DNA of 64,000 bases from NCBI GenBank assembly GCA_023053575.1, contig JAKZAP010000001.1, forward strand, positions 12,912,849-12,976,848. Reading direction: 5' to 3'. The first letter of the stretch is position 1. Each line of letters opens with the position of its first letter. This DNA comes from Branchinecta lynchi (lineage: Eukaryota > Arthropoda > Branchiopoda > Anostraca > Branchinectidae). The notes beneath the pieces are model-generated. The model had not been told where the DNA came from and made no database searches. It saw only the letters and a list, made by a program, of their open reading frames with translations. Made by a program: the position numbers and the translations under genes. Shown piece by piece: positions 27,871-51,483 of the stretch.

Positions 27871-28639
27871 CTGGTTTGCACTTGACAACCGAAGAAGACC
27901 GAAATGACTGTGACACTAGAAGTTTAACCAAGGAAAGACAAGGCAGATCACACAGAAGATGCGAGGGGGTTGTGATGTGTTATAGAGCTACTTTACTAGT
28001 TTGCTGTTTCACACACCACTATCCAAAAGGACCGAAACTGCTTCAAGAGATTTCACCGTCGTTATTGTTGTATTTGCTTTTTCTTCATTTTTGTAATGCT
28101 GTGTCCAATCATTCAACTGGAGTATATTGTTACTGTCCAAAGATTTACTGTCGATCCGCAGTATGTCAAATGACCGGAGCGACGGTTCTACCTTTACTAC
28201 TCAGATCCGTAATCGACAGACCTCTGATTTTCTAAGGAGTGACCGGAATTGACTGGGATAAGCTTCAGACAATTCTGCGCCATAATCTTCGTGGAAAATA
28301 GCAAAATCATAATATTATCACGAAGGAAAAAATTCAGGTTTGAAAGGGTTAGTCGTTTTTGCAGTTACCGTGGTATTTGAAACAACCGTTGCTCTGCAAA
28401 ACTGACAATTGCCGGATTTGCACTTTTAGAAATCGTCCAAAAACAAATACTGACATCTAGAGCGACATAATTTCTTTCCCACCAACTTGACACACAACTA
28501 GACTCTTGTTTTAGTGATGATGAAAGTGAGATGAACTTTTCAGATAACTGCAAAAACGCCTTTTGACCTTGGTGTCAGATACCACGATAACTGCAAAATC
28601 AACTTTGGACCGTGTCATCAGATACCATGGCATCTGTAA

Positions 28640-30945: not shown

Positions 30946-30949
30946 ACAA

Positions 30950-32400
30950 ATACTCAATTGAATTAATTATATGGATTGTTTTAAGCGATTTCTTTTTCAC
31001 TATCTGCCGTGTAGTAGTGAATACCAGAATCTCTATGGCCATCCCCACAACGGAAAGTTCTACTATCTGAATCAACACAGACGCCACTTTTCAACAGTGC
31101 AGTGGTGAGGTTGGTGAATAAAGTGGCTCAAACACATGTCCCGTCGTCAATTTCGCCTGTCCCCCGATCGATTTCGTTTATAATCTTATTTTTATTTTCC
31201 GTGAACCGTTCAACGGACTGTACTATCCAGAAGAAGCATTCTAACTTAGTTTTTGAGCCAAAGAAATCCAGAATACCGCGTCTCAACATGTTACTTTACT
31301 GGTACTAAAATCTTTTAGTCAGTTCTGAAATTTCCTGTTTTCATCGGCGCTCCCGACAGGTTATCCTTACGATCAAAAACATATAGCCTCGCATATAGCG
31401 TTCAACATACATATTTTAACCTCTATGGACACTCTACTCAATCTGCCGAGAAATACTAATTCTTCGCGCCGATGAAGACAATACGTACGTACCGCCACGA
31501 GCCTAGCGAAGAGCTAGATGCGGCGACATAACTACCCCCAACAGACGTTGTTGATTGGTTGACATCGGATTTGAATCAATTTCAAGGATTCGTTCGGGTG
31601 ACCTTTCTCGTTCTTCCCAAGGTTCACTGGCGTGTTTCCGCCCTGATCATATAGAGTATTAGATTATTTCTCTAGAGATCAAGTAATGTCGAAGTACCTC
31701 CGTCCGGTAGTTACTGAGACCACAGTCGGACAGACAAAATCTGCTACCTAATGGTAGCAAATTTACATCCTTCGCTTTTCAAAACATGTTGTTTAACGCT
31801 GGGGCTTAGAAGACTCGTTGACTGTAGTGTTTGTTTTTACTATACCTTTTTGCCTTGCAAATTAACTACCTACCCAACCCTGCATTTATGTGCCATCGTT
31901 GTTTCTTCTTGCTTAATTTGAATAAAAAGAAAAATCATCAGACTCGAAACAAAAAACAAATGAGACATGCTGAAAATGGGTGATTGCATGACCAATCGCG
32001 AGAAACACTTTGCAGTTTTGCATACACAACTTGCCCGTGGAAGCCAAAGGCTCCATTCTACTTTTGCCTAAAAATTTCTTTCGACACCCCCAGACTAGGG
32101 GCGAACTTCTGCCTAGGAAAATAGCAGCTTCCTCGGGCCCCAAGCCTCGGAAAGGGTCAAAAGCGGTAAGTGTATTAACTAGAATGTATACACACAAAAA
32201 AGTCCAGCTACTACTTGTCTATTTCATTTCTAAGTCTGCTTGTCTATTTTTTAAGTCAAAGTGCGTCAAATAAATACAAAAGTTTTTTTTTCTTCTCTAA
32301 ATTACCAAAATGGGCCCTAATTCTGAACTGCCCAGCCAGTGTAAGGCCCCTGGATCACTTGACCTGCCCCGACCAAACAACCGCCACTTTGAATTCTCTG
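30950..32400. other. No gene seen
   Basis: Mixed-composition intergenic DNA. Small open frames occur on both strands near 31913-32273 but none shows family resemblance, splice support or repeat structure. Confidence 0.4.
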
Positions 32401-32617
32401 TGGGGGATTGCCCACTCTCAACTTCAGTGTACAGCATGTGCCCGGTGTTAGAAGTGTCAGAACATCAACATCATTATGTTTTCAAGCCTTTGAAAGATAA
32501 ACCGCCTACTATATGGCTGGGAACGTTGCCGGCACCACTAGTTTTTGCTGGTGCCAGCTTGTGCCCGATCCCGGGGAAGAGTTTACAGCAGGTGCCGGGA
32601 GTGGGTAACCCTCGGTG
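32401..32617. mobile_element. GGTGCCG-family MITE
   Basis: GTGGGGGATTGCCCACTC at the left and GAGTGGGTAACCCTCGG at the right are imperfect inverse ends. The interior has GCCGGCACC and GGTGCCGGG and the family word TTTGAAAGAT. It is a sibling of 5671 and 61895. Confidence 0.6.
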
Positions 32618-32714
32618 CTCTGCGGGACTGTTGACTTTGATCACAATTTGCAAATCAAACATAAATCAAGAAACTCACGCATACTCACGACTACTATTTT
32701 GAGTTCCTACTGCT

Positions 32715-33500
32715 ACTTCAACAAGACCAAAGCTTTCGATGGGTCCCAAAAATTTAATATTCGATACAGACAATTGGGTTTTATCTTTGCCAGACTCCTC
32801 GAATATTTTTAGTATTGAAATTTAGAAACAGATCGAGGCCAAATAGCTAATCATATGACAAAACCATGCTCAGATATGGATTCAGCATGTGTGTTTACCC
32901 ATATAAGACGTATCTATTTTGACCAAGCTGATCGAAACTTACTGCATTACTTCTGCCAAATTTCGGGCTAAGTGCTTGTCCGGCAAAAAAATAAAGCTCA
33001 GAAACGAATTCAACGTATCTCCTTACCTCTATATCGCACATCTAATCAACTTCAAATAAAACTTTAATTATATCAAGTTTTCAGGTTTCGACCAGATTCC
33101 GGGCGAACTACATATTGGAGTAAAGAATGATTGTCATATACGGATTCAGCATCTTTTCATACCCCTAAATCGAACATCTAATCAACTGTTAACACATTTT
33201 CCGGTTTTGGCCGGATTCCGGGCGAACTATTTGTCCGACGAGAACATGGTTTTCATAATCATGTTTTCTTACCCCTTAATATCTCATTAAATGTTTTCTT
33301 TGCCCCTTACTCTGAACCCTCACCCCTAAATCTAGGGCTATAGTGCCCATATACGAACTCGACTTTTCCCTTACCCAAAGGATCCTCACACCAAATTTCA
33401 TCAAAATATCTCATTCCCTTCACGAGTTATCGTGCTGACAGACGGATGGTCAACTTTTGTGCTGCCGTAAGTATCCCTCCACTTCCGTTTTGGGATCCCA
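32715..33500 (+). mobile_element. Shorter copy of the CCGGATTCCGGGCGAA element
   Basis: Head at 32718 (AACAAGACCAAAGCTTTCGA), three or four diverged core units, and the usual tail (ATCAAAATATCTCATTCCC, GTATCCCTCCACTTCCG, GGGATCCCA). Confidence 0.65.
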
Positions 33501-34700: not shown

Positions 34701-35349
34701 CAAACTAATGTTCCAAGAAGACAGCAGGCATATTAGGGACCCGATCAGACTAACTTAAAATTGCCATTTCCAGGATCCGCTCATCCTTGAGGAGCTGTTA
34801 TCCGTAGGCATTCACATCTTTCGGATTAAAGTTCAGCCCTGAATGGAACTGGTTCAGTTGGAAAGAGCTCGTGTCTCAAGAGGTTCCATTTCAATCAAAT
34901 CCGGACAGGAAATCACGTGGCACAGTTAGAAAAGAGATCGAGACGGGACTCGACAGGACGAACTAAGCACAAGCCCTAGATTCATCTCCATCATCAGATA
35001 AATCTACACCATTGGTCCTTTAACGTGCGACGACGATCTCTCCCCAGTCAAGTGTTAACTCCGGCAGCAGGCAGCAAGACCAACCACCTGACACTGTATG
35101 AGGGAGGGGCTAAAAAACTGAGGCCCAGGCGTTAGTTATGACGTATTCACGAGGAGCTATCAGCTTCAACCATAGCACTACCTATCAGACATTTATTAAG
35201 TGATAATAAAAAAAAGAGAAAAATACAAAAAGCTGCGACAAACTTGGTTGTTATCCAAATGCTGGCGACGGCGTCTGTGTCAACTGGAAGAGAAAGAGAA
35301 AATCAGATTACTAAGGCTAACAGAACATCCTTCGATAAATCAGAGACAG

Positions 35350-35452
35350 TTCCATCAGTTTTCAAATTAAAATCACTGGGCTGACAACCTAAGGACAAAA
35401 GGCAATTTGTCCAGCTGTTCAACCTAAGTCGCAAATTACCTCATCATTCGTG
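35350..35452 (-). ncRNA. Type 3 C/D snoRNA, host-gene copy (18S guide)
   Basis: C box ATGATGA at 35441-35447, D box CTGA at 35355-35358, and a D'-like CTTA after the guide GGTAATTTGCGA. The guide is complementary to 18S GCGCAAATTACC except at its last base. An internal hairpin GGACAAA/TTTGTCC lies between D' and D; its RPL14 counterpart has a G-U pair where this one has A-U. It sits in the last intron, D box 69 nt from the acceptor. Confidence 0.8.
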
Positions 35453-35973
35453 ATCGCAATAACAGGCAGCTCATTCATTTTCCCTATCTTATAAGCGAGA
35501 TGGCTCGGTTCACCTCGACTGTAACCCTACTCGCAGACTGATCCCTACCCTACGTGGTTTTAAGTATATCCCGGCAAATAATCAACACAGCTTTTAGCGA
35601 GCTCATCTGAGCTCGCAACAAATATTTTTAGGTCCCGAAGATAGCACAGTAAAATGATGCCACACAGTTGCGACTGAAGTTCGAAAGTTGACTGAAAGTT
35701 CCTTATCCCGAGGCCGAACGACAGCAAGGTGAGAAGCCAACAGAAGTAAGTACATTGCTTTATACTTATGTTATGTAGTTTGTGCAGTATGAATAAATAA
35801 ATGAATGAAGAACTAGGACATACCTTGACTACTGGTGGCAGACAAAGATTTAGGACTGGCTACCAAACGCTGACGCAACCAAAAGACACAGGTCAAATCG
35901 GACACTTCACCTGTGAAAAAAAAGACATTTCAGCAAACGCAACTGAAAGATTCAAATAACGTTATAAGCCAGA

Positions 35974-36042
35974 AAGAATCAGTTCTGGAGTTAGCTGCAT
36001 ATGTCGATCAGTCGGCACTTCCTAGAAGTATCATCACGTTTC
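35974..36042 (-). ncRNA. Type 1 C/D snoRNA, copy K
   Basis: C box GTGATGA at 36031-36037, D' CTGA at 36008-36011, D box CTGA at 35979-35982. The conserved core TAGGAAGTGCCGA precedes D'. The D box is 66 nt upstream of acceptor TTCACAG (35911-35913). All key boxes are intact. Confidence 0.85.
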
Positions 36043-36387
36043 AAAGCCACATCGGACTCGCTGACCAAACGCAGTGACTTCGTAAGGTATTTTCGTAGAG
36101 AATGTCGAAAACAATCGATTTGCTAGCAGAAGAGGCTACTCTAATCTTAAGGGAACGGAGATTTGGCAGAGCTACAAATTGTTTGACCATGTTGTTGAGT
36201 TTGTGCGCATAAGAGAAAGAAGTTGTGTCAAAACTTCTCTTTTGCTCGTTTCCCGCGGGATCGGTCATTCAACCAGAATCCGGTAAAGCCGCCGCAGGCT
36301 GTAATCAGGAGGGTTCGCTGTGTGCAGGCTTGCGTTTGGTAACATCACGAGATGAAAAAAGAAGAAGAAACAAGAACTACGAGCTCA

Positions 36388-38719
36388 TATGGCACTTGTT
36401 ACGAGTAGGCAGTACAAGAAAGTAGATGAGAACGTGACAAAATACACCTGCCATCCAAAAATGCGGTTTGGAAATAGAAGTAGGATATTTTGTTTCACTC
36501 ACTTCTGAGCAGTTCTGGCATCGTCTCGATTATCAAATGCACATGACTGTTCAAACTTCTAAGTTTCAGCCTAATAAATCCACTCGTTTGATCCCTAGAC
36601 GTGCTACAATATTTCCGGTACTCCCTCCATCTCCCCCTACCGTGGCCGAATCTGGTTCGGACTAAAAAAATGGATTATCTAAAGTATCTTCTTTTATACC
36701 ACCTATCAAGTTTCGATCGAATCTGAGCATTTTTGGAAAATTCTGGTACCCCCTCCCCCCACCAACGTTGTCGGATGCAGATCCTGGCCCAAAATAAGTC
36801 ATCTAGGGTATATGCTCTCTCTAAGTTCTATGTTTCATTTAAACTGATGCACTCGTTTGACTCCTATGCGAGCCTCAAAGTTTCCGGCAATCTCCCTCCA
36901 ATCCCCCCCACTGTGGCCGAACAGGACTTGAAAACATAAACGTCATATCTCCTAATTCCCTCTTCGTGTCCATCAAGTTTCACTGAAATTGGAACATAGC
37001 CTATCTGCAAGTTTTCAGTACCCCCCCCCCCCCTACCTTGGCCGCATCCGGCTCGGACGCCAAATAACAAATCTAGGCCGCATAAACCCGGCACTGTCGA
37101 ACTTGCATCTCATTCGGTCCATTCGTTTGGTTTTTGTACATGTCAAAAGTCCCCCCCCCCCGAATTCCCCCAACCGTGGTCGCATTTCGTTCGAACGCAT
37201 CTTTTACATGTTGAGGCCATCGATTCTTATCACCAATTTGTTTGACCTTAGTTGGTCGTATCCTAGTTTAAATAAGTAAGTCAATTAAGTCGGGTCGCTA
37301 ATATGCCTGCAAAGTTTCTTTGTCTTAGTACTTCTGGAACTATTCTGACCCCCAACTACGGGTATTCTAGGAAAGCCCCTCTACCCCCCCCCCCCACAGA
37401 GCCCCGAAACCATCTAGCTCCGTAAAATTCGGATCTAGGCCTGATGCTTGTTCTCTCCATTAAATTCCGTCCCAATCCCTCTGCCTTAAGCGTTTCTTGA
37501 GTTTTCCGGTCCCCCCCCCATCCCCACAGGTACAACCCGACCCGACGCGGACTTAAACACTGAACATCCGAGGCGATAGCTTTTTCCACCTGACAAGTTT
37601 CATTCAAATCCGATCACCCGTTCAAAAGTTATACACGCCACTAGATTCCGGACTCCCCATCCATCCACTCCCCCCACGATGGTCGGATCGGGCAAACGGC
37701 TGTTCTCAAGTGAACCTGTTCGGGTCCCTGACATACCTGCCAAGTTTCATCGCCCTACCACATCAGGAAGTATGCCGAACTCGAGGGATCGATAGAACTC
37801 CCGACCCCCCCCCCCCCAACTCCCCCAGAGTGCCCGGATCTGGTCCGCTTATATCAATGACGTATCTAGGACTTGTGCTTGTTCTTCCCACCAAGTTTCA
37901 TCCCGATCCCTCCACTCTAAGCGTTTCTCCAGATTTCCGGTTCACTCCTCCAACTCCCCCCAGTGTCATCGGATCCGGTCCAGATTTATAGTGGGAAGTC
38001 TGAGACACGAGGTCATCCTAAATATCAAATTTCATCAAGATCCGATCACGTTCACAAGATAAAAATACCTCAAATTTTGGCTTCCCCCTCCCAGATGGTC
38101 GGATCGGGGAAATGACTATTTCCTATTTAATATGGTCGGGTCCCTGACATGCCTGCCAATTTTCAGCGTCCCAGCACATCAGGAAGCACCAAACTCGCGG
38201 GATCACTAGAAATTCGGACGTCTCTCCCCCCCCCCACTCCCCCAAAGGAGCGGATCCGTTCCGGTTATATCCGTCACGTATCTAGGACTTCTGCTTGTTC
38301 TTTCCACCAAGTTTCATCCGAATCCCTTCACTCTAAGTGTTTTCCAAGATTTCTGGTTTCCCCCTCCAACTCCCCCCAATATCACCGGATCCGGTCTGGA
38401 TTTAAAATGGAGCGTCTGAGACATGACATCCTTCCATATATCAAGTTTCATTAAGATCCGATAACCCGTTCGTAAGCTAAAAATATTTAAGTTTTCCTAA
38501 TTTGTCCGGATTCCCCCTCCCTCACTCCCCTCCAGATGGTCGGATCAGGCAAGCAACTATTTCTTATTTAATCTGGTCAAGTCCCTGATATGCCTGCCAA
38601 GTTTCATCGTACTAGCTTATCTGGAAGTGCCCGAACTAGCAAAACCGGGACCGACAGACCGACTGACGGACAGAAATTACAATCGCTATATGGCACTTGG
38701 CCGAAGGACAAGTGCCATA
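36388..38719. mobile_element. C-rich repeat element with terminal hairpin, in a host-gene intron
   Basis: It starts TATGGCACTTG (36388-36398) and ends with an 11-bp hairpin: TATGGCACTTG, loop of 9, CAAGTGCCATA (38689-38719). The interior is about a dozen degenerate units of roughly 150-200 bases, each with 'AAGTTTCAT(C/T)', a poly-C run and 'CC(G/A)GATC(T/C)GGT'. No coding sequence. The 3' hairpin plus tandem core suits a Helentron-derived non-autonomous element. It splits an older host-gene repeat unit (36230-36310 resembles 39380-39450). Confidence 0.65.
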
Positions 38720-38896
38720 AAAGACAACAACACAGAACTAGGTCATACCTTGTATGTCATGGTAGGAGAAGACGATGTAGGGCTTTCTATCAAACCCTGA
38801 CCGGTTCAAAGGTAGAACGTCATCCACTTAACCTGCAAGAAAGTAGATACTCTAAAAAAATGAAAAATAAAAAACTAAATAACGATTAAAGGCAAT

Positions 38897-38965
38897 AAGA
38901 ATCAGTTCTGTAGTTTGCTGCATATGTCGATCAGTCGGCACTTCCTAGAAGTATCATCAAGTTTC
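38897..38965 (-). ncRNA. Type 1 C/D snoRNA, copy J (C-box variant)
   Basis: C box reads TTGATGA (38954-38960), with T at the first position in place of a purine. D' at 38931-38934 and D box CTGA at 38902-38905 are intact. D box to acceptor is 67 nt. Confidence 0.75.
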
Positions 38966-39631
38966 GGCTTCTATTTTTTCAACTTCACATCCGATGCTCT
39001 CCCCAAACGCAGTGACTTCGTAAGGTGGTGTTGCAGGCAGAGATGGACGAATCCGGATTCGGACGTCTAATTCTCCAACCTAAACCCAGGATTTACCTCA
39101 GATAAACTATAACGATGTATATGATTTGATTTTTGTTAAGGTCGGATTCATACCTACCCCTGGATTCGGATTCGAATCGTTTCACGATCGGATTCGCCCA
39201 TCTTTGGTTACAGAGATGATGTCCTGAACAATGGTGTACTGACAGGGGGCAACCCAGATAGAACCGCTGCAAGCCTGGGCGGGTGGTAATACTCTTGGAA
39301 GGAAGAGACTCCCTACGGTTTACCAAATTGTTGGGTTTGTAGGCATAAGGATAAGATAAAGAAGCTGTGCCAAACTTTTCTTTTGCTCGTTTCCGGCGGG
39401 CGGCGGGATCGATCGTTCAACCAGATCCCCGTAAAGTGGTCGGTATCTGAAAGCCTGTGCAGGTTATAGGACGAAAATTCAAAAGAACAGAACACCGAAC
39501 TAGGTCATACCTGGACTGTCGTGGTGGGAGAAGACAAACTTAGGACTTGCTATCCATTGCTGATGGGTTAGAAGGCAGAAGAAACTCTGAACAAAAGAAA
39601 ATGAAAACCTCAAATAACAGTATTAGGCATT

Positions 39632-39700
39632 AAGAATCATTTCTGGAGTTTGCTGCATATGTCGATCAGTCGGCACTTCCTAGAAGTATCATCACGTTTC
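39632..39700 (-). ncRNA. Type 1 C/D snoRNA, copy I (D box lost)
   Basis: C box GTGATGA at 39689-39695 and D' at 39666-39669 are intact, but the D box reads ATGA (39637-39640). The usual acceptor block (CCTGCAAGAAAG on the plus strand) is also deleted, leaving a makeshift TTTTGTTCAG 48 nt away. Probably not processed. Confidence 0.6.
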
Positions 39701-40005
39701 AACCTCACATCGGATACTCTCCCCAAATGCAGTGACTTTGCAAGGTTTAGTGGTGCAGTCGTTCAACCAGATCCCCGTAAAGTGGTCGGTATCTGAAAGC
39801 CTGTGCAGGTTATAGGACGAGAATTCAAAAGAACAGAACACCGAACTAGGTCATACCTGGACTGTCGTGGTGGGAGAAGACAAACTTAGGGCTTGCTATC
39901 CATTGCTGATGGGTTAGAAGGCAGAAGAAAGGTTAGAAGGCCTGCAAGAAAGAAGATACTCTTAACAAAAGAAAATGAAAAACTCAAATAACAGTATTAG
40001 GCATT

Positions 40006-40074
40006 AAGAATCAGTTCTGGAGTTTGCTGCATATGTCGATCAGTCGGCACTTCCTAGAAGTATCATCACGTTTC
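40006..40074 (-). ncRNA. Type 1 C/D snoRNA, copy H
   Basis: C box GTGATGA at 40063-40069, D' at 40040-40043, D box CTGA at 40011-40014. It lies in a unit almost identical to copy G, offset 374 bases. Acceptor CTTTCTTGCAG is 67 nt downstream. Confidence 0.85.
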
Positions 40075-40379
40075 AACCTCACATCGGATACTCTCCCCAA
40101 ATGCAGTGACTTTGCAAGGTTTTGTGGTGCAGTCGTTCAACCAGATCCCCGTAAAGTGGTCGGTATCTGAAAGCCTGTGCAGGTTATAGGACAAAAATTC
40201 AAAAGAACAGAACACAGAACTAGGTCATACCTGGACTGTCGTGGTGGAAGAAGACAAACTTAGGGCTTGCTATCCATTGCTGATGGGTTAGAAGGCAGAA
40301 GAAAGGTTGGAAGGCCTGCAAGAAAGAAGATACTCTTAACAAAAGAAAATGAAAAACTCAAATAACAGTATTAGGCATT

Positions 40380-40448
40380 AAGAATCAGTTCTGGAGTTTG
40401 CTGCATATGTCGATCAGTCGGCACTTCCTAGAAGTATCATCACGTTTC
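40380..40448 (-). ncRNA. Type 1 C/D snoRNA, copy G
   Basis: C box GTGATGA at 40437-40443, D' at 40414-40417, D box CTGA at 40385-40388, with 67 nt to acceptor 40316-40318. The D-side spacer is shared with copies F, H and K. Confidence 0.85.
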
Positions 40449-40908
40449 AACCTCACATCGGATACTCTCCCCAAATGCAGTTACTTCGCAAGGTTTTGTG
40501 GTGCAGAAATAATGTTTTGCAGGGGAGCAACCCAGGTAAAATCGCTGAAAGCCTGGCTGGATACTAATAATCTTATGAGGTTTGTCGGCTTAAGGTAAAG
40601 AAGCTGTGTCGAACTTTTCTTCTGCTTGCTTACGACGGGACCAATCATTCAACCAGAACCCGATGTAATTATGTAATTACGGGTCGGTATCTGAAACCCT
40701 GTGTATGGTAATATCATGGGGCGAAAACTCGAAAGAACAAAAAACTGAACTAGGTCGTACCTTGACTGTCGTGATGGCAGAAGACGAACTACAGCTTGCT
40801 ATCCGTCGCCGATGGGTTATAAGACATAAAGTCATCCACATCATCTGCAAGAAAGTAGATACTCTTACAAAAGAATATGAAAAACTCAAAATATCGATAT
40901 TAGGCATT

Positions 40909-40977
40909 AATAATCAGTTCTGGAGTTTGCTGCATATGTCGATCAGTCGGCACTTCCTAGAAGTATCATCATGTTTG
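40909..40977 (-). ncRNA. Type 1 C/D snoRNA, copy F
   Basis: C box ATGATGA at 40966-40972, D' at 40943-40946, D box CTGA at 40914-40917. Acceptor TTTCTTGCAG at 40845-40847 is 67 nt away. Confidence 0.85.
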
Positions 40978-41541
40978 AAGGACACACTGGATATATCTTA
41001 CACGGCCGCAGGACTTGGTCAAGTTCGTTTTCCGAAACCAACGCTTCGAAAAGGGGATATACTGGCACAGGAGGTCACTCAATTTTTGAATGGGTGGATA
41101 CATTTTTGGGATCCAAAACGCTGGTGACGGTATATTAAAATCGATATTTGTCAATCTGTAAAAACATTTTGTTTTATCAAGACTGACACGAGGCTTCGTC
41201 GGGTCGAACTACATCATTCTCTATTCCCGGTCAAATTTAACAGATTTGGACAGTATCAAGAAAGAAACAACCACAGTCTGGGATCCCAAGTGAAATCCCG
41301 ATATTATACCAGCTTTTGTAACATTTGGGAGTGTGGGTTCTGTGTCTATCCTAGCATTGAATGTCTGCAATAACGCCAAAAACCTTGTCGACAAAACGAT
41401 ACATACCTAAACAGTATTCCTCCTTCCAAAAGGAGCATACACCACACTGGCTGCATCAACCCACTTGTTGTCTGAAAGGAATTTTTTTTTTACTAGAAAC
41501 GGCTCAAGGAAAACGGTATTGAAGGAAAAGGTGGTTGTGCG

Positions 41542-41609
41542 AATAGTCAGAATAATTTTAGCTGCATATGTCGATCAGTCGGCACTTCCTAGAAGTTTCA
41601 TCACGTTTA
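41542..41609 (-). ncRNA. Type 1 C/D snoRNA, copy E
   Basis: C box GTGATGA at 41598-41604, D' at 41575-41578, D box CTGA at 41547-41550. The D-side spacer is CAGCTAAAATTATT, shared with copy D. Acceptor CTTTCAG at 41472-41474 is 73 nt away. Confidence 0.85.
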
Positions 41610-42131
41610 AGCACCACGTGGGAACTAACCAGTTAACTGAGCTTTGCTGTTCTGAGCGTGGTCCTGCACGACCACCACTTCCATTACTGAAGCTTCATCA
41701 CGTTTAAGGAGCATACAGGATCCAACCAATTAACTAACTTCACTTCTGACTGAAACTTAAATTGTATCAGCACCGTAGAATATTCCTACCAGGTATCAAA
41801 TATTACTGCAGCCTAAGCTGACTGCGCCAAACGGATCGTCAGCTGATATTTACTTAATAAACCATTGACGCATCCGTCTAGCAGTCGCTTCAGTAGCAGG
41901 TTCCTTAAGTCCGCAAACTTATTCTATCCTATCAGACAGAACGTTACCTTAAAGATGATATAGTTGTCGTGGGCCCTTGTCCAGACATTCAATCGACTCC
42001 ATCCAAACACAATGGCACTTTCCGACGATGAAGTCACAACGCGGATTGACGAAGTTGAAATCCGGCTGATGATAGAAAGAGTCCGTTATTATCATACATA
42101 ATACAGTTAACAAGGTATTGCAGAGTGACTG

Positions 42132-42212
42132 AGAGATCAGAATTCCGTTTTGAATCACAGTTCGGAAACCGAAGGCAACCTTCTAAGACGAACGAGATAA
42201 ACATCATTTGAA
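42132..42212 (-). ncRNA. Type 2 C/D snoRNA, copy 2 (28S guide)
   Basis: C box ATGATGT at 42201-42207 (one change from consensus) and D box CTGA at 42137-42140. Just after C comes ATCTCGTTCGTC (42187-42198), complementary to 28S GATGAACGAGAT with one G-U pair, followed by a weak D' (TTAG). Acceptor ATCATCAG at 42066-42068 is 69 nt from the D box. Confidence 0.7.
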
Positions 42213-42428
42213 GTGCGAAACAAAAGTAAAATCAATGCAAAGAATGCTTGAACTATTCCAAGCTGTGGTGGCTGTAGTAACTGTCGACTATTCTGGTTGA
42301 GGGATCTTTTGTCAGCAACAGATATACCAATCAATCATGAGTTCTTGCTTATCAGCAAATTTGAAGATAACATACACATTATTAAGGACAAGTAGAAGGT
42401 ACCGCCATCAAGGAAGAAATACTTAATT

Positions 42429-42481
42429 TAAAGTCAGTTTCATTTTTGGCGGCACTTCCTACTTAAGTATCGTTATGTTTG
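42429..42481 (-). pseudogene. Decayed type 1 snoRNA copy
   Basis: It keeps GTAGGAAGTGCCG and a CTGA (42434-42437), but D' is deleted and the C box reads ATAACGA (42470-42476). The corresponding splice acceptor is also lost. Flanks match the copy C unit. Confidence 0.75.
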
Positions 42482-42967
42482 AAGGTCGTCGGATATACCT
42501 TACATGGGTGCAGGACTTCGTAAAGTTCGTTTTCCGAAATCAATGCTTTGAAAAAGGGATATAAAAGGGATAGTGTTCAAATCGATATTTGATAATCTGT
42601 AAACACAAAACATTTTATTTTATCACGATTGATGCCAGGCGTCGTCAGGCCGAACTACATCATTCTCAATTCAAGATACAAACAGTGTCAAAGAAGAAAC
42701 CAACCCCAGTATGGGATGCGCAAGTCAAATCTCGATACCAATTTTTGTAACATTTCAGAGTGCGGGATTTTAAGTCTATTCAAGAATCCCTGAATATCTG
42801 CAATAACGCCGAAAACCTTGTAGCAAGAACGATACATACCTTAACAGTGTTCCTCCTTCCAAAGTGAGCAGAAACCACATTGGCAGCATCAGACCAATTC
42901 CGTTGTCTGAAAGAAAAATTACTAGAAACGGCTCAGCAGTACGTATTGGAGGAAATGGGTTTGGTTG

Positions 42968-43035
42968 ATTAGTCAGAATCATTTTAGCTGCATATGTCGA
43001 TCAGTCGGCACTTCCTAGAAGTTTCATCACGTTTA
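42968..43035 (-). ncRNA. Type 1 C/D snoRNA, copy D
   Basis: C box GTGATGA at 43024-43030, D' at 43001-43004, D box CTGA at 42973-42976. Acceptor TTTCTTTCAG at 42907-42909 is 64 nt away. Confidence 0.85.
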
Positions 43036-43204
43036 AGGAGCACATGGGATCTAACCAATTAGCTGAGCTTTGCTGTTCTGAGCATGGTCCTGCACCGAAA
43101 CCAGCCATTCCATTACCGCTGTTTGGCCACCACCTAAGTAATATTCTCGCTGAGCTTCAACTGCAACTGAACTTCACCTGCGTCAGCCCCGTAAAATATT
43201 CCTA

Positions 43205-43395
43205 TCAGGTATCAAACATTCCTGCAGTCAGGTGACTGCGCTAAACGGATCGTCAGCTGATTTTACTCGAACGATATTTCGGCCCTTATCAAGGGCCCTC
43301 TTCAGATCCAAAGCTAGAAAAGTGAATCAGAGATCCCAGATTCACTTTCGAATAAAACCATCTGACGTGTCCATTTAGCAGTGAAATATGAAGTA
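43205..43395. mobile_element. Foldback MITE inside a host-gene intron
   Basis: Arms GACTGCGCTAAACGGATCGT and ...CTGACGTGTCCATTTAGCAGT flank inner words TCGGCCCTTATCAAGGGCCC and AGTGAATC...GATTCACTTTCG. Same superfamily as 19282-19487. Confidence 0.6.
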
Positions 43396-43666
43396 AATTT
43401 AGTAGCAGCTTCGCTAAGTCCGCAAACTTATCGTATTTTATCAGATAGAAAGTTACCTTAAATATGATTTAGTTGTCGTTGACAACTTCCTTTACATCCT
43501 CCTTGAAACTCATGTCTTACATTCAATCGACTCCGCCCAAAACAATGGAATGGCACTTTCCAACGACGAAGTGGCAACGTGGATAGGCGAAGTTGAAATC
43601 CGGCTGATAATAGAAAGAGTCCGTTACCATACATAAAACAGTGAACAGGGTATTGCAGAGTGGTTG

Positions 43667-43747
43667 AGAGATCAGAATTCCGTTTTGAATCACTGTTAGG
43701 AAACCGAAGGCAACCTCCTAAGACGAACGAGATAAACATCATTTCGA
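43667..43747 (-). ncRNA. Type 2 C/D snoRNA, copy 1 (28S guide)
   Basis: C box ATGATGT at 43736-43742 and D box CTGA at 43672-43675. Guide ATCTCGTTCGTC (43722-43733) is followed by TTAG as a degenerate D'. GTGATTC may be C'. The acceptor at 43604-43606 is 66 nt downstream. By target region it is comparable to vertebrate U30/U79, but no sequence homology is claimed. Confidence 0.7.
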
Positions 43748-43933
43748 GTGCGAAACAAACGTAAAATCAATGCAAAGAATGCTTGAACTAATCCAAGCTG
43801 TGGCTGTAATAACTGTCGACTATTCTAGTTGACGGATCCTTTGTCAGCAACAGTTATATCAATCAATCACGAGTTCCTGCTTCTCAGCACTTTGAAGGGA
43901 GCAGTGATATCCCCAACATCTCAGCTAACTTAA

Positions 43934-44285
43934 AGCACATTTTTTACCATTTGCTGTTTCTGTTCCAATATTCAAAGCTATCTGAATACTATGAAATTAT
44001 GCTCTACTTTTAACGAATTATCCACGGCTATGGCTGTTTTAAGTCTTTTCCCAGGCTCATCGACTTCTAGCAAAAACTCGGCAAAAATTCTGATAACTGA
44101 TGTTACGCATCAATAGAAAGATAAGCGAGCGCTCATCGGTAGCATGATGCACATGGCAATAGTGAATCGTGGCAAGTACAAAGATTAGTGAGGTGTCGTT
44201 AGCGAATTTAGGGGGCATTATTTAAAAATAAATGAATACAGATGCAGAAGTAGGTTGCATCGGCATTATAGGTACGACGGGTCCT
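43934..44285. mobile_element. TTAA-flanked MITE
   Basis: Bounded by TTAA at 43930-43933 and 44286-44289, with inverse ends AAGCAC.../...GGGTCCT. Interior resembles the 45718 element on the opposite strand. Inserted in a host-gene intron. Confidence 0.6.
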
Positions 44286-44552
44286 TTAACATGTAGTAAG
44301 AGCCTGCAGGTATACAACGCAGGACTGGAACTGAGGGTCTCTTCCTACTCCAGTTTCACATAAGTTTCGCACGCAGATCAAACAAACATTTAACAAAAAA
44401 ACGTACCTTATATCATGTGCAGAAATTCAAACATTAGCCAAAGCCCGACCGCTTAACTGCAGATGACCTCGGCTCAGCATGAGTTGCCTGGAAGGCAGAC
44501 ATAATTAATGACAAGTACAAGGTACCACTATCAAGAAAGAAATGCTTATTTT

Positions 44553-44621
44553 AATATTCAGTATTATTTTTAGCTGCATATGTCGATCAGTCGGCACTTC
44601 CTAGAAGTTTCGTCATAAAAG
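44553..44621 (-). ncRNA. Type 1 C/D snoRNA, copy C (C-box variant)
   Basis: C box reads ATGACGA (44610-44616), one change from RTGATGA. D' at 44587-44590 and D box CTGA at 44558-44561 are intact. Acceptor CCTTCCAG at 44488-44490 is 68 nt downstream. Confidence 0.78.
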
Positions 44622-45602
44622 TTACATGGCACTGTCAGAAGTTTGGCAACACTTACAAACAAGACGCTAATCCCTGTTTTGACATGATGATACTTCTGTT
44701 GTGACCCTTTTGGTTTCGAGACAAAACTTCTATTACGACCCTTTCATAATGTTTACTACGAGGATGTCGAACTTCCGACAGTATACCAGCCTTGGATCAA
44801 AAATTCGGAAATAGTTGAACTGTTCGATATTGCCCAGCGCTGCCCTGCCAGGAAAGTCTTTTACACCGTCTAGTTTGAAGCTGAACAAAACCCATAAGCA
44901 AAAGCAAATCTGGTGTTGGAAATAATCAGCATGAAGGCTACACACATGACACCGTTGCACTTAGCACCGATGCGAAAAGTTCAGCCTATCTCGCAACTGT
45001 AAGTTGATGTTAACCGAGATACTAAATTGTAAAAAGTATATTAGAAACACTTCATTTGAAATCACAAATCAAGAGAATTCTGGTTTCTAAGTATCAGTAA
45101 GAAGGTACCGCGGAGTTCGGCACTACCAAAATTTTAAGCTTGTCTATCAATAAAGGTCGAACTTTTGCATAGGGCATCAGCCTCGGAAGGCCACCGGCCA
45201 TGTGCCGAAATGGTGAGCATAGAATTCTGTGGAAAAAAGTACAGTTGTGTGTTCTGCCAAACTACCATCTTCATGTCCCGGATTGAGTTAGTTGCCACTT
45301 CGTTTTCAAGTACCGGATACAAATCTTGTCAATTGCCCAAGCTTTTAAGTCCGTTTATCACTTTATTCCGGAGACGAGTATATTGAAACAAAGACATCAC
45401 GATGGAACTAGCAATCTACAGCTGAAGTTTTGCCTGTATCAATGTGACTTACTTGACTTCACTGCAGTCCAGATGGAAGATTGGGACGGGACAGAGCTGG
45501 CAATCCAGTAGAGTGAACCATTAACAGTGCAACAGAAGTCTGAAAATGGGTAAGTGTCAGAAATATAAAAGCAAACAATACCATCTCGGAATTCCGCGCT
45601 GC

Positions 45603-45671
45603 AAGTTCAGAATAAAACAAGCTTCATATATCGATCAGTCGGCACTTCCTATAGAAGGTTCATCATTGTGT
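45603..45671 (-). ncRNA. Type 1 C/D snoRNA, copy B
   Basis: C box ATGATGA at 45660-45666, D' at 45635-45638, D box CTGA at 45607-45610. It shares GATCGATATATGAAGC after the guide with the RPL14 copy, where all other copies have GATCGACATATGCAGC, so it is closest to the RPL14 intronic gene. Acceptor CCATTTTCAG at 45540-45542 is 65 nt away. Confidence 0.85.
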
Positions 45672-45717
45672 TCTTTTAAGCTGGCAATTTTCATATTCAA
45701 AACTTAAAGGACGTGTC

Positions 45718-46050
45718 TTACTTTTAATACTAACGGAACCACTTCTGTAATCACTCCATATATTTCTAACCCTGGAGACCCCGCTTTCGTACGGTACATT
45801 CTAACCCCTGTAACGAAACCACGCTGATTTTCTCACTTGCCATTTTGCTACCTTTGATGTTTATACGACGGTTGTCTGCGAGAAGTTATTCCATCACAAA
45901 AGTTTCCCTGTTTTCTCTTTAAGTCGACGGGTCTAGGATAAAAGGCTCAAAACAAGCAAAACCGTCGGTTATTGGTTGAAACCACAGCCTAATTTTAAGT
46001 ATTCAAATATTTTAAGGAACTATAAGTGAGTAAATAGTGCGAGGGGTCCT
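45718..46050. mobile_element. TTAA-flanked MITE (about 333 bp)
   Basis: Flanked by TTAA (45714-45717 and 46051-46054), with inverse ends AGGAC and GTCCT as in piggyBac- or Kolobok-type insertions. Interior is shared with 16760-17150 (CGGTACATTCTAACCCCT, CGCTGATTTTCTCACTTGCC). Confidence 0.65.
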
Positions 46051-46599
46051 TTAAGGACCTCATCAACTCGAAGTGACACTGGCACGTTGCATCTAGCAAA
46101 AGAGGGTTTGCTGAAAAAAAAACTCACAAAATAAATACATGCACAAGAACACTTGATCTTACCTCCAGCTTAGTACATCTGATGTCCTAATGAAATTCTG
46201 ACTTTGTCGTTATCTTTGTAACAGCAAGCCATTCCGAAACGTCGTCTTCTTCACCTGGAACAAATAAACCCACAGCACACCTCCCTTTCCCCATAATAAA
46301 TAACAATCTTTGGTAGATGGAAGCGTTGGGATAAGGTGCCTTGTCACAGTGACACAATATTAAAGACGGACCTGGCCGCGTATACCCTACAACTCACGAG
46401 GCGTCGTCTGGGGTGGGGGCTTAACATGAACATAAAAAGCGATTTGACAAAGCGCCAGGTGACAAAGAGACAAAGCGGTTTGAAAAAACGATTGCAGGCA
46501 ATTGAGAAGAGTGGAACGTAAGAACATTACTGACCCTGAGCGACGTCACCCCCCCCCCCCTTGGTGAGACTATGACGAAGATACCTGATATTATAGCAA

Positions 46600-49500
46600 A
46601 ATCTGGGGTCCTTGATTTTTTAATTAAAAAAAATCAATGACAAAATCACTTAGCCTTGGCCTTGAGCTTCTGCACACGAGCGCGGCTCCTGGTGGTGGTC
46701 TTGGATACTTTCTTGGAGGACTTCACCTTGGCAACCACAAGTGCCTGACGGAGGATGGCATTACGGCTCTGCTTGGCCTTCTGAACCTTGTACCTCTCGA
46801 AGTCGGTCAAGTTTGCTCTCTAAAACATATGAGCTAAGTGTAAAATATTGCAGCTGAGATCACTGAAGCTGAGAACTTAAGAGGACAGAAGATCAGATGT
46901 AGTTTTATAATCAACAGAACAAATCGCCTTAATGGACAATAGGCATTCGTCCAGCTATTTGCCCTCAGGCGCAAATTACCTCATCATTTAGAATGCTAGA
47001 AAGGGGAAGAATAGCAGACTTCCAAGGCAATTTAACTTTCCGTTTCTTCTTTTAATGGTACCAAACCAAATAAGAACAAAATCAGTGTTAATCCCCCTAT
47101 CAATCTACCTTTGCATGACTGGTGAAACTGACAAATCAGAGTATCAGCAAAAAACCCAAAAGTTATAACTTTATTTTAGAACAATTAAGAAAAGATTGTG
47201 GTGGATCTGGGTGCTAATCAGGAGTGAAGGATACTGGTTCTGTAGCACAAAAACAACTTTTTGTTCTCACAAAGCTCTAAATACGGCAACAGACAGTGAC
47301 ATTTTTTCCTGATATGGCTAAAGCATAACAAGGTTCAACTTTGAATTAACCTCACTCTATTAAACCAAAACTGCATGGATGAATATTTGAACTGGGTTTT
47401 GAGGTGGTCGATGGCACAGATTGCTTGAATAGCTCTGTATATAAATTCAACCAAACTGAGTCTCCGATGATTATAAGGAATATTGGTTAAGACACTTGTC
47501 TGATTATCAATCTGAACTTTAAGCATGGAAAAACAAAGCCGGGACTCTAGAGATGCCCGGACACATGCCATTTCTACCATAAAAATTTCATCCCAGTCAC
47601 CCAATTAATTGTGCAGCTAGTAATAAAAAAGTCACTGCCATTGCTGGAACATCATCTTACCTTGGCACGAGCAGCAATCCTGTTGGCCCAGTTGGAGGCG
47701 TTCCATTTGTCACTGATCTTATCAGCATCCCAAGCTAGCCTTACGGCCTTGGTGGATGTTCCTCTGTTAATTTTGATAACATAGTCAGTCAGGTGCATGT
47801 CGTTGAAACGAACAGCCTGTCTGGTTACTCCACTGCATGGTCCATCAACTAGTCCCTAAAAATATGAGAAAGCCTTACAGAACGTATGCCTTAAAAGACA
47901 ACTCTTTTCTCCCTTTACATGGAATTTCAGATAAGTTCTAGCTTCATATATCGATCAGTCGGCACTTCCTAGAAGAATCATCATAATTAAAAACCAAGTC
48001 TCTCTGTCCTAGCCAGGACACTCCTACAGTATTAGGTGCATCTATATTTCAATCTCTTGCAGGTTTGGCTGAAACACAGGCAGCAACATGCTTCTGAGCA
48101 CTCAAACAATTTGTAAAAGACATTTTAATGTTTTATAAAGAATGAAAACAATCGAGGGTAATGGAACTACTCCGGAAGACCTTCGCCATGCTATTAGCAT
48201 CAATACTGTCAAAAATTGTTGTATTACACAGCTGGTGCCTTGGAAGTGTCCAGTGCCCAGCCTTAAATCTAACTTTAAGACTAAGCTAGGTCTTATTGCC
48301 AAAGTCTTTAGCCACTATGTTAAAACTTTGCCAAATGGTAGAAACTTGAAGTAGTAAGTTTTGGAAACTAATACCTGTATGCCTAACAAAACGTGTGAGA
48401 CAATCTGACTTAGGCAGGGTAGAAGTAGAAGGTAATGGCCATGTGCAACACAAAACTACAAGAATGTGGTTTAATTTGCTCGTCTTAAAGTGCTAGGTAT
48501 ATCAGTGTGATTTTCTATTTTTTAAAACAGGTGACAACATGCTTGAACAACTACTATGCATCATATCAAAACTTGTAAGGATAACTAGCTACATATTGGG
48601 TCATTTTAACATGGAAGAACAAGAGCAGTCCTTTTTCCCTTGCTGGATTTTTCAGCTAACCTGAATCTGATCAAATTGTCAAAAGTTTCATGGCCCAAAA
48701 GACAGTTGAGGAAAGTTAATTTGAATGATATAAACTTTGAAGTGATTGCTAAAACCAACAGGCCTACCAAGCAACTGTTATTACAATATTTGTACTGACA
48801 AGTTCAGTTTAGGCTCCATTTATTGGTTGTTAGCTGGACACTCAAGTACTAACCCTTTTACTATTATATCTGTTGGCTTTTTTTTCAAGGGGTTGCCAAG
48901 CTGGTTATTTTTCCATAAACAAGAAGAAACACACCTTTAGAGGACAAGGAGAAAAGGATAACTATTACGACAAGAGCTTCCTTGAACATTAACTGTGGTG
49001 ACTGTAAACACGGCACAAACTGCTTGATGCATGATCTGTGCGGAAGGGTGCAAAATTAAATGAGCATCAAGGACAAAGAAATACCAGCTTTTATATACAG
49101 GAGTGGTTTCCAACACCGAATTTCCACAACCTCAAACCTGTCCTAAAAAGGTTGGAAGGAAATTTCAATCCATTCCTAAAAAGGAACTTACTATCAAGAA
49201 GAGAACTCCAGAGTCACCTGGAGTCACTCAGGACCTGTTTTAGACAGCACAGAAATTTCATTGTGAGGTTTTCAGGCCAAGTTTGATGTCATAAACTCGA
49301 GGTTGGATACTACTCCTGTATAACTTCCTGTTTCCTTCCAAATACTGCGCATTAGTACTGACTAGATCTGGTTTCCACCATATATGTTGGTGTTGTTCAA
49401 ATGGAAGGCAATGTTCAAATAAACATACCCTCTTCGTAACTGATGCATTTGAGATACAGGAGGGGTACCTGACGTCGTTTCTCCACTACCTGAATACCTT

Positions 49501-51483
49501 GATTTTTGCAACGAAAATGTTAAAATGAAATGTATATGCTGTCCCAACAGTCAAGAGGCAAAACAAAATCGCATGTCCAAAAATATTCATAATTCTGTGC
49601 CTGTCCTTTGTTTTGAAGCTGCTTTGGGAAAGGATTTTCTGGCTATTGGCTTTTCTTACTCTACCTTTTCATGATTTAGTAAGTCAATCATTGTAGGGCA
49701 AAGCGACCAGTAACCGGCCCTCGACACTTACTCTAACTACAATCAATCATTCAATCAATTCTTATTTGATTTTCAAGAATCATACACATGCAGAATCGCA
49801 TTTAAATGCTGTTTGTGACGACTGGAAAGTTTTCTGTCAGTGTTGCCACATAAGATTTTGGTACAACAAATCAGCTTGATGTGTTAAGACCAAAAAACGA
49901 CCACCTTGAAATATGCAATTACTTCAATGTGTCTGACAATTCTGTGTATTCAAGTAAAAGAAAAGATTTGCTTTCTAGTCCTGTTGTTTGTTTTGATGAA
50001 TTTTGTTGAAAAATTCAATTATTGTAAGTTTTAAAGTCTATGGAAATAATTGGCCAGTTTTTCCGTCACAGGCAGCTCCTTCTAACCCTAAGGTTAGACT
50101 GAAATGATCTTGTTTGAAAAGAAAACTAGCTCCTTCTAACCCTAAGGTTAGACTGAAATGATCTTGTTTGAAAAGAAAACTATGTGTAACGAGAAATGTT
50201 GATGCAATATATATTTATCCAACATTTAAACCATTCAGTTAGTAGGGTAGCTACTAAAAAAATAACTTTCAAATTCTGATCTTTTGGTAATAGGACCATG
50301 ATACTCCTGAACTTAAGCAATGGTTTGAGTTCAATAATACCTCACTAACTTGCTGTTGAGTACTCCAATTCTCAATTAGAAAAACACTCATTCCTATGGA
50401 AGCTTGCCGGCAGCATGCTGGTACCTGTTAAAAAATCTCGGAATTTGGCGCCGTGAATTTTCTGGGAACGATGACATCAAAAAGCAAACGACTGCCAAAC
50501 GAATTGTGTCCACCATCTTGTCTTATAATATGTATTGATACAGTGTGTTAGTTTTTAACACTGAATGCAGCTGCACATGGATTACAAGAGAAACTGGGAA
50601 TCTGATGCTTAAGTTCAGACAACAAGCTATATACTGGTGTGAAGCACCATAGATATTGAGACCTTGGTATCAATAAATTCTTTCTAGGAAAGTTCAGGTA
50701 ATTTTTTATACCTGAATTTCCATGCCATTATAAATATGATAATAAAAGCTAGCTAGGAAAAAGCCACAGGCCTTATTAAATTAGGGATTTTTTCCTGAAT
50801 ACAGTGGCATATTCGAAACATTTTTGTCAGCTGTTTAAGACTGAACAAAATTGAAAATATGATGAATTCCCGGCAATTCATTTCATTACGGAGAAATCTG
50901 CAAATCAGCGCTACTGCAGTTAAGCTTTTTGTGGCTACCCTACAGTTAGCTTCAATCTAGTATGTTTGTCATATTTTTGGGTTCCTTTTACAGATTATTA
51001 TGCAGGAAAGACTTCCATCTTGTCTGGGGTTGGATACCCCTCTGTATTGTAGTCCTACTGATGAGCTGTTTAAACTCAGTGAAACTGTGATATAACTATC
51101 CTAACAAAGAAAAGCTCTAACCTTAGTCTGGTCAATCAGATCAACAATGACGCAAGTCTTGCCAGCATCTTCTCCACTGACAATGTAGGCAACTCGCCCT
51201 ACTTCCACAAAACGTTTGAACAACTGCAAACACAACTGAAGATTAGATATGAACACAAGGTACAATTGTATACATTTCAGCCTGAATGCAGGTAGGCTAG
51301 CCTAACATGACTGAAAATTGTTTATTCTAACAGTAACTAACCGCCGTTCAAGAGAAAAATACGATAAGTAGCATACAGAGGAAATTCACATTTTATGATC
51401 AGTTAATACCACGCTACGTTAATTATAAAGTATTTCTCTTCATTTTAAAGAATTTTATACCATTTTGATTCTTGTGACGGAAG
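46600..51483 (-). CDS. RPL14: 60S ribosomal protein L14 (eL14), gene span
   Basis: Four exons, CDS join(51461-51463, 51122-51223, 47661-47855, 46646-46819), 157 residues. The product is a 60S ribosomal subunit protein. Translation contains [45 protein letters not shown] and [19 protein letters not shown], matching the eL14 family, and ends in a Lys/Arg-rich tail. Length is near that of arthropod eL14 and shorter than the vertebrate form. ATTAAA at 46619-46624 is a likely poly(A) signal about 22 nt after the stop. Introns 2 and 3 host snoRNAs, the usual arrangement in animal ribosomal protein genes. Confidence 0.95.
46646..46819 (-). CDS. RPL14: RPL14 exon 4
   Basis: Acceptor GTTTTAG (46820-46822); stop TGA at 46646-46648. 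Encodes [20 protein letters not shown] and the basic C terminus [12 protein letters not shown]. Confidence 0.95.
   Translation of the reverse strand, partial: RANLTDFERYKVQKAKQSRNAILRQALVVAKVKSSKKVSKTTTRSRARVQKLKAKAK
46888..46991 (-). ncRNA. Type 3 C/D snoRNA in RPL14 intron 3 (18S guide)
   Basis: C box ATGATGA at 46981-46987, guide GGTAATTTGCGC (46969-46980), D' CTGA at 46965-46968, D box CTGA at 46893-46896. The guide is fully complementary over 12 nt to 18S GCGCAAATTACC. The D'+5 rule points to the first A of that AAA run, in the region where animal 18S carries 2'-O-methyl A near position 468 (human numbering, from memory). Internal hairpin GGACGAA/TTGTCC. D box lies 71 nt from the exon 4 acceptor. 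Confidence 0.87.
47661..47855 (-). CDS. RPL14: RPL14 exon 3
   Basis: Acceptor TTTTTAG (47856-47858), donor AAG|GTAAGA (47659-47660). Encodes [19 protein letters not shown] to [12 protein letters not shown]; 65 whole codons. Confidence 0.95.
47922..47990 (-). ncRNA. Type 1 C/D snoRNA in RPL14 intron 2 (copy A, 28S guide)
   Basis: C box ATGATGA at 47978-47984, D' CTGA at 47955-47958, D box CTGA at 47927-47930. AATT immediately before C (47985-47988) pairs with AATT immediately after D (47923-47926), forming a terminal stem. The D' guide TAGGAAGTGCCGA matches 28S TCGGCTCTTCCTA at 12 of 13 positions; the fifth base from D' pairs with the C of CGGC. The D box is 69 nt upstream of the exon 3 acceptor. 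Confidence 0.9.
48000..51121. other. RPL14 intron 2, remainder
   Basis: About 3.1 kb with no further exon or recognised element, apart from a (TCAA)n run near 49742 and a 54-bp duplication at 50074. Open frames here are short and non-coding in character. Confidence 0.5.
50074..50181. repeat. Exact 54-bp tandem duplication
   Basis: 50074-50127 is repeated identically as 50128-50181. Each unit starts AGCTCCTTCTAACCCTAAGG and ends GAAAAGAAAACT. Identity implies a recent event or assembly collapse/expansion. Confidence 0.95.
51122..51223 (-). CDS. RPL14: RPL14 exon 2
   Basis: Acceptor TGTTTGCAG (51224-51226), donor AAG|GTTAGAG (51120-51121). Encodes [20 protein letters not shown] through IVDLIDQTK; 34 whole codons. 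Confidence 0.95.
51461..51483 (-). CDS. RPL14: RPL14 exon 1: short leader plus only the start codon
   Basis: ATG at 51461-51463 in good context (AATCAAAATGG), directly followed by donor GTATAA (51459-51460). Upstream, CTTCCG at 51483-51478 is a plausible 5' TOP start, about 24 nt downstream of CATAAAAG (51509-51502). A first coding exon holding just Met is known in RPL14 genes, and no other in-frame Met is available in exon 2. Start position is inferred. Confidence 0.65.

Follow-up and report, generated by a model that had tools for sequence, protein, structure and literature searches.

A 64,000-nucleotide (nt) stretch of the genome of Branchinecta lynchi (assembly GCA_023053575.1, contig JAKZAP010000001.1, positions 12,912,849 to 12,976,848; hereafter the window) carries an array of box C/D small nucleolar RNA (snoRNA) units on its minus strand, from 46254 to 35190, modelled as 13 introns, each holding a single C/D unit, between 14 non-coding exons. 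The introns are very probably the product of a spliced non-coding RNA that was built by duplicating snoRNA introns of coding genes. The units, their paralogy, their selective conservation and their complementarity to ribosomal RNA (rRNA) are directly visible in the DNA. Ten units are SNORD49-like, two (v1 and v2) are unassigned C/D units and one is SNORD16-like, and from intron 1 to intron 13 they follow in the order u1, u2, v1, u3, v2, u4, u5, u6, u7, u8, u9, u10, SNORD16-like. The adjacent upstream gene, in the same orientation, is RPL14, which encodes ribosomal protein L14 (PF01929, E 4.3e-29, with matches to PDB eL14 chains) and was found at one place only in the 576-Mb genome. Its introns hold one further SNORD49-like unit and, in the last intron, one further SNORD16-like unit.

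The modelled exons are 65–147 nt long, all 13 introns have GT-AG borders, and the spliced length is 1252 nt. A preliminary description of this DNA had proposed 13 minus-strand C/D-like units with RTGATGA and CTGA boxes, each shortly followed by a 3' splice site, together with short exons, matching donors and a final AATAAA. A recount gave the same 13 units, one in each intron, and the exon lengths, the intron borders and an AATAAA in the last exon bear out the rest of that architecture. The distance from the end of the D box to the acceptor is 66–75 nt in 12 units and 50 nt in u8 (counted by hand from coordinates). RTGATGA is exact in nine of the 13 units and has one mismatch in u2, v1, v2 and u9, while CTGA is present in all units except u8, which has ATGA. 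The C-to-D distance is 58–93 nt, as expected for box C/D RNAs, in 12 of 13 units, u8 again being the exception. Because its D box is mutated and its acceptor has been moved by a deletion, u8 is probably dead. The acceptor after u4, in an A-rich tract, scores under the splice threshold and was placed by hand. C/D-like stretches near 42660 and 41226 were not counted, as they have no CTGA at 40–110 nt; their divergence is 9/60, compared to 226/1400 for the whole duplication. A C/D pair at 36348–36308 was likewise left out, being 394 nt from any modelled acceptor.

Two shuffle-controlled searches, both designed after the units were known and both run on tandem copies that are not independent, compared this arrangement with chance: a strict search (C box, CTGA and an acceptor 60–80 nt on) gave nine matches in 46300–35100, whereas 200 dinucleotide shuffles averaged 0.145 and yielded two at most; a laxer search gave 11 units with 13 distinct D boxes, whereas 60 shuffles averaged 1.5 distinct D boxes and yielded five at most. 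These figures show that the C/D–acceptor pattern is real, not how many times it arose. In the rest of the window, the strict search returned two matches in RPL14, one at 15566 on the minus strand and three overlapping starts at 14689–14695 on the plus strand.

The SNORD49-like units share a core 20-mer, AGGAAGTGCCGACTGATCGA, with exactly 11 matches in the window and exactly 11 in the genome, ten in the array and one in RPL14. Two further places in the genome match with two mismatches, compared to one for a reversed-pattern control. Rfam SNORD49 (RF00277), run in E-value mode, gave 12 matches, namely the ten array units, a decayed copy at 42474 and the RPL14 unit. The best reached 31.6 bits (E 4.7e-4) and all 12 fell under the gathering score of 37, and for this reason we use the name SNORD49-like only. 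The D' guide, AGGAAGUGCCG, is present at the D' box in 11 of 11 copies and aligns to the Rfam SNORD49 consensus. Letters shared by the copies form a gradient along the array, from RPL14-like (u1) through u2–u4 to u5–u10. A stretch at 41676–41749 on the minus strand is 79% alike to the surroundings of u3 (43081–43009) and appears by eye to be another decayed SNORD49-like copy. Searches of a viral sequence collection for rRNA or the snoRNA core, and of a prokaryote collection for the snoRNA core, returned no match.

On the animal's own 28S rRNA (fragment L119, Rfam LSU_rRNA_eukarya), the best pairing of the SNORD49-like D' guide falls at the site already known for SNORD49. Twelve of 13 positions are paired, and the C corresponding to Cm4426/Cm4456 lies opposite the fifth nucleotide upstream of D'. 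This site stays top across the scanned stretches of the 18S, 5.8S and 28S. Excerpts from two papers assign SNORD49A/B to Cm4456 (Cm4426) (PMC9941101) and U49 to 28S Cm4426 (PMC3511168). The unpaired position, a U-U mismatch at guide position 6, is also shown by the Rfam SNORD49 consensus guide, and seems to be an old feature of this guide. Because shuffled guides sometimes score equally, the assignment of the target rests on homology as much as on pairing. Another 28S copy, L131, is without the site string; L119 was therefore used for the 3' part. The contig that holds the window (C17) has the 18S pattern near both ends (L119, L130, L131); Rfam confirmed rRNA only at the high end, where the 28S copies are unequally complete. 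The 28S site pattern also occurs in at least 105 stretches of the prokaryote collection, mostly archaeal by title, one of them confirmed as archaeal large-subunit rRNA. A contig filed under a bacterial metagenome-assembled genome (L038) includes a stretch that resembles, by eye, eukaryotic 28S at the SNORD49 site, probably as contamination.

The SNORD16-like guides pair with the 18S over 12 (RPL14) and 11 (array) contiguous positions, placing the A in GCGCAAATTACC opposite the fifth nucleotide, and none of 40 shuffles did as well. This sequence has two genomic matches, a lower bound for the search used, in the last RPL14 intron and in array intron 13, and the array copy has CTTA as its D' box. 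Both are SNORD16/snR87-like (clan CL00046), with Rfam scores below gathering. For eight D-box guide variants of the SNORD49-like units, seven from the array and one from RPL14, no rRNA site stands out (14–40 of 40 shuffles as good).

Units v1 and v2 are 71 nt long, with the C box ATGATGT. Contig C5 has a third v copy with 91% identity over 73 nt, from two bases ahead of the C box to the D box. The exons on either side of it match DEAD-box helicases (PF00270, E 6.5e-10 and 3.3e-13), and the acceptor of the helicase intron follows 72 nt downstream. A longer alignment (75–76% over 159–171 columns) extends from 2–6 bases ahead of the C box across the 3' splice site and 11–18 nt into the exon; the upstream intron is not included. 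The similarity spans the snoRNA and the 3' splice site, and therefore a snoRNA with its intron end is common to two genes. Within the array, v1 and v2 differ at 3/71 sites, whereas the remainder of their duplication differs at 223/1329 (p 0.003). Their D-box guide finds nothing in the animal's rRNA (30 and 34 of 40 shuffled guides as good), and the guide before CTTA makes 10 pairs with 18S (8 and 17 of 40). The guide before CTAA/CGAA pairs with 28S over 13 positions, including two wobbles (2 of 40), and the target is left unassigned. Repeats at 26832–33280 on the plus strand also match DNA upstream of the helicase v copy (L134), at 66–76% over 259–662 columns in the 12 matches listed.

Comparison of paralogues inside this one genome, rather than between species, separates the snoRNA bodies from the exons. 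In the six older pairs among u5, u6, u9 and u10, the body differs at 1–3 of 59 sites, whereas the exons differ at 27–34 of 82–84 (32–41%; Fisher p 1.2e-5 to 6e-9). Between deeper copies, identity over the 32-nt guide segment is still 0.89–0.98, but in exons and flanks it is down to the level of shuffled sequence or close to it. Equal conservation of exons and snoRNA cores, which the preliminary description had named as evidence against a snoRNA host, was thus not seen in these older and deeper paralogue pairs. The paralogous exons after u5–u10 are of unequal length (84, 85, 85, 76, 84 and 87 nt). A coding reading of the exons was rejected, since the longest ATG open reading frame (ORF) in the 1252 spliced nt, 78 amino acids, is equalled by 21% of 2000 shuffles.

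Several observations weigh against a working snoRNA array. No SNORD49 or SNORD16 match attains the Rfam gathering score, and the v units are without an Rfam match up to E 5, a 351-base search giving only a weak fungal match at E 0.28. The SNORD49-like pairing with 28S contains the U-U mismatch, and equal scores somewhere in rRNA were reached by 4 of 40 shuffled guides, or by 2 of 40 in the case of u1. Terminal stems were no better than at random places in the 13 units tested, v excluded; the Rfam SNORD49 model is itself without terminal stem pairs. Wider pairing is unsupported overall, with one of the 13 tested units (u3) having a pairing reached by 1% of its shuffles. The very recent pairs u6–u7 and u7–u8 lack the contrast between body and exon, and the sequence directly flanking v1 and v2 (19/208) is not clearly less well kept than the units themselves (p 0.31). 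Because an exact 20-mer served to select the SNORD49-like units, identity at 20 of the 59 body sites was imposed by that selection; all 1–3 body differences fall in the other 39. Both u8 and the copy at 42474 are broken, which, together with the sub-gathering Rfam scores, would suit a decaying pseudogene array without expression. However, 12 of 13 units retain a D box and the spacing, and the snoRNA bodies stay conserved as the exons drift, making such decay very unlikely. The array is real and probably working.

A working array would operate through splicing. Minus-strand transcription through 46.25–35.19 kb would yield a spliced non-coding RNA, and each excised intron would be trimmed around a C/D ribonucleoprotein (snoRNP) seated some 70 nt ahead of the 3' splice site. 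In excerpts from earlier work, C/D snoRNP assembly has its optimum about 50 nt upstream of the branch point (PMC8162545), and in Drosophila the distance to the 3' splice site is about 70 nt (PMC1821038). The array spacing fits splicing-coupled assembly, and u8, with both D box and acceptor altered, illustrates the opposite case. Ten introns would yield the SNORD49-like guide, nine of them with intact boxes, its D' element directing 2'-O-methylation of the 28S C (human Cm4426/Cm4456); one intron would give a SNORD16-like 18S guide and two a C/D RNA of unassigned target. The RPL14 introns would make one SNORD49-like and one SNORD16-like RNA, and the DEAD-box helicase gene one v. A higher guide dose is the likely consequence. 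Transcription, splicing, processing, methylation, dosage and the direction of copying are thus the predicted parts of this scheme.

The preliminary description had called the array one transcript whose product is its introns. Architecture, spacing, selective conservation and rRNA pairing favor introns as the product, while a separate transcript of its own is less secure, as position 46254 directly follows a predicted acceptor (score 4.6) and hence is not necessarily the 5' end. The array could instead be a 3' extension of RPL14 through alternative splicing or polyadenylation, as in Drosophila mfl, a possibility we rate nearly evenly. The two are co-oriented, E1 begins about 390 nt past the RPL14 stop codon, the acceptor precedes E1, and no promoter was recognized. 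In excerpts from PMC1821038, dUhg6 was initially taken for a non-coding host gene in its own right, and later proved to be an extension of mfl at its 3' end. However, RPL14 has its own ATTAAA at 46624, acceptors scoring above 4 arise about once per kb, so the one at 46254 may be due to chance, and pyrimidine tracts at 46509, 46469 and 46439 could be terminal oligopyrimidine (TOP) starts of the kind found in the host genes UHG and GAS5.

Duplicated intron–exon units account for part of the array, with 2.5 copies of a 374-bp unit at 39577–40506, a pair of about 1.5 kb at 43.9–40.8 kb and older duplications. Human C/D families lie mostly in one host, which is ascribed to cis recombination (excerpts from PMC8178906). 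In the proposed growth, snoRNA introns would have been copied from coding genes and the intron–exon units then multiplied, with exons drifting and bodies kept. SNORD49-like and SNORD16-like units occur in the same order and on the same strand, and were found genome-wide only in RPL14 and the array. This shared order points to RPL14 and may reflect a tandem duplication of that gene, in which the coding exons disappeared from a copy of its 3' part while both snoRNA introns persisted and one of them multiplied. Against such descent, and also against the broader reading of copied coding-gene introns, RPL14 exons were unrecognized in the array over 42 exon pairs (36 + 6; some borders in the 36 differ slightly from the final model). 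The best pair, E3 and the last RPL14 exon, was matched by 0 of 200 simple shuffles, with an uncorrected dinucleotide p of 0.002–0.005; a score of 17.5 or more was reached by 4 of 2068 genomic pieces, and the pair is not significant over 42 tests. E12 was rejected as an RPL14 exon remnant, with 0 of 200 simple shuffles but p 0.09–0.59 on retest.

The failure to recognize RPL14 exons in the array and the helicase v copy point to movement of cassettes. Because a v relative sits in another gene, single snoRNAs did move, which lowers the odds of an RPL14 duplication, now a rather unlikely origin, and raises those of single-snoRNA movement. Single snoRNAs, alone or with a 3' splice site, may have entered a pre-existing or growing non-coding gene one by one, an origin we consider tenable if just short of probable. 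The deep SNORD49-like copies have only the snoRNA body in common, v shares its body and 3' splice site but not the upstream intron with the helicase gene on another contig, and mobility of snoRNAs between hosts is described in excerpts from PMC3511168. However, the arrival of both RPL14 families at its direct neighbor in the same order would then be a coincidence, and saturated flanks would give an identical picture. A more specific version, which we offer tentatively and think doubtful, has the gene growing intron by intron from snoRNA plus 3' splice site cassettes out of coding genes (RPL14, DEAD-box helicase). Each cassette would bring an intron end, a nearby donor would turn up and exons would arise as mere spacers.

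Table 1. Modelled exons and snoRNA units of the array and of RPL14 (window coordinates).
Feature	Position	Strand	Remarks
E1	46163..46254	-	acceptor before 46254 (4.6), donor at 46163 (6.3); first or internal exon
u1, SNORD49-like, intron 1	45607..45666	-	Rfam SNORD49 31.6 bits, E 4.7e-4 (gathering 37)
E2	45453..45539	-	exon after u1
u2, SNORD49-like, intron 2	44558..44616	-	C box ATGACGA
E3	44407..44487	-	exon after u2
v1, unassigned C/D, intron 3	43672..43742	-	C box ATGATGT; 68 nt to acceptor
Exon after v1	43457..43603	-	donor 4.1; weaker donor at 43521
u3, SNORD49-like, intron 4	42973..43030	-	Rfam and box/spacing search
Exon after u3	42840..42906	-	gene model
Decayed SNORD49-like copy, intron 5	42417..42474	-	16/56 mismatches to u5
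v2, second v1 copy, intron 5	42137..42207	-	3/71 different from v1; 71 nt to acceptor
Exon after v2	41948..42065	-	gene model
u4, SNORD49-like, intron 6	41547..41604	-	Rfam; acceptor set by hand
Exon after u4	41407..41471	-	gene model
u5, SNORD49-like, intron 7	40914..40972	-	Rfam and box/spacing search
Exon after u5	40761..40844	-	gene model
u6, SNORD49-like, intron 8	40385..40443	-	Rfam and box/spacing search
Exon after u6	40231..40315	-	gene model
u7, SNORD49-like, intron 9	40011..40069	-	Rfam and box/spacing search
Exon after u7	39857..39941	-	gene model
u8, SNORD49-like, intron 10	39637..39695	-	D box ATGA; probably dead
Exon after u8	39511..39586	-	acceptor shifted by deletion
u9, SNORD49-like, intron 11	38902..38960	-	C box TTGATGA
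Exon after u9	38749..38832	-	gene model
u10, SNORD49-like, intron 12	35979..36037	-	Rfam and box/spacing search
Exon after u10	35824..35910	-	gene model
SNORD16/snR87-like, intron 13	35355..35447	-	Rfam snR87 28.2 bits, E 0.18 (gathering 37); 71 nt to acceptor
Last exon	35190..35283	-	AATAAA at 35197
RPL14 (eL14)	46646..51223	-	coding exons 51223-51121, 47855-47661, 46819-46646; exon 1 not found
SNORD49-like in RPL14	47927..47984	-	71 nt from acceptor of exon 47855; Rfam SNORD49 E 0.0029, below gathering
SNORD16-like, last RPL14 intron	46893..46987	-	Rfam SNORD16 E 0.36, below gathering

Intron 12 contains a dispersed repeat rich in G runs (36361–38640, sub-period about 416 bp), a second copy of which lies at the window end (62144–63985, 75.7% over 1650 columns). 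Within RPL14, a weak hammerhead-like match on the plus strand (51047–51090, 21.8 bits, gathering 48.5, E 0.56) is probably due to chance. Elsewhere, the minus strand has an ORF with PDZ matches (11369–12541, PF00595, E 1.6e-14), a long ORF without a Pfam match (21231–22352), a tRNA-Lys (CTT) gene (24622–24694) and a 239-amino-acid ORF (59196–59915) that resembles by eye the tail of a retroelement reverse transcriptase, with no Pfam match at 1e-3.

Known hosts share parts of this organization. In UHG, too, the exons are short and non-coding and the tandem introns hold C/D snoRNAs; GAS5 and UHG carry mostly different snoRNAs, whereas ten of the 13 units here belong to a single family. At SNORD115 and SNORD116, many copies of one C/D snoRNA occupy tandem host introns; these are imprinted and are not known to have a clear rRNA target, in contrast to the canonical rRNA guide of the array. 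GAS5 is similar in its short non-coding exons and C/D snoRNAs in tandem introns (excerpts from PMC2653536). Human SNHG29 (SNORD49A/B, SNORD65) is also a non-coding SNORD49 host, with two SNORD49 copies in one intron (excerpts from PMC9622897), unlike the ten copies in ten introns beside RPL14. At Drosophila mfl/dUhg6, a single C/D snoRNA is likewise repeated in tandem, with each intron holding one copy at a distance of about 70 nt from its 3' splice site, and the non-coding exons follow a gene for ribosome biogenesis (excerpts from PMC1821038). There, the host is a pseudouridine synthase gene with four DmSnR60 copies, as opposed to RPL14 with ten SNORD49-like ones, and the 3' extension is proven, while here it is one rival reading. 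In the open-access papers searched, we found no description of this array and nothing joining SNORD49 with RPL14 or with C4426; PMC3412847 makes no mention of L14, U49 or SNORD49.

The array is distinguished by ten copies of one canonical rRNA guide, by its link to RPL14 and by a cassette in common with a helicase gene. A coding and a non-coding host of the same snoRNA families adjoin here, with copies of graded age, which would make the birth of a non-coding host gene traceable. The v units present a snoRNA and 3' splice site common to genes on two contigs. The array also raises a question of dosage, namely why one 28S methylation would need ten copies of one canonical guide.

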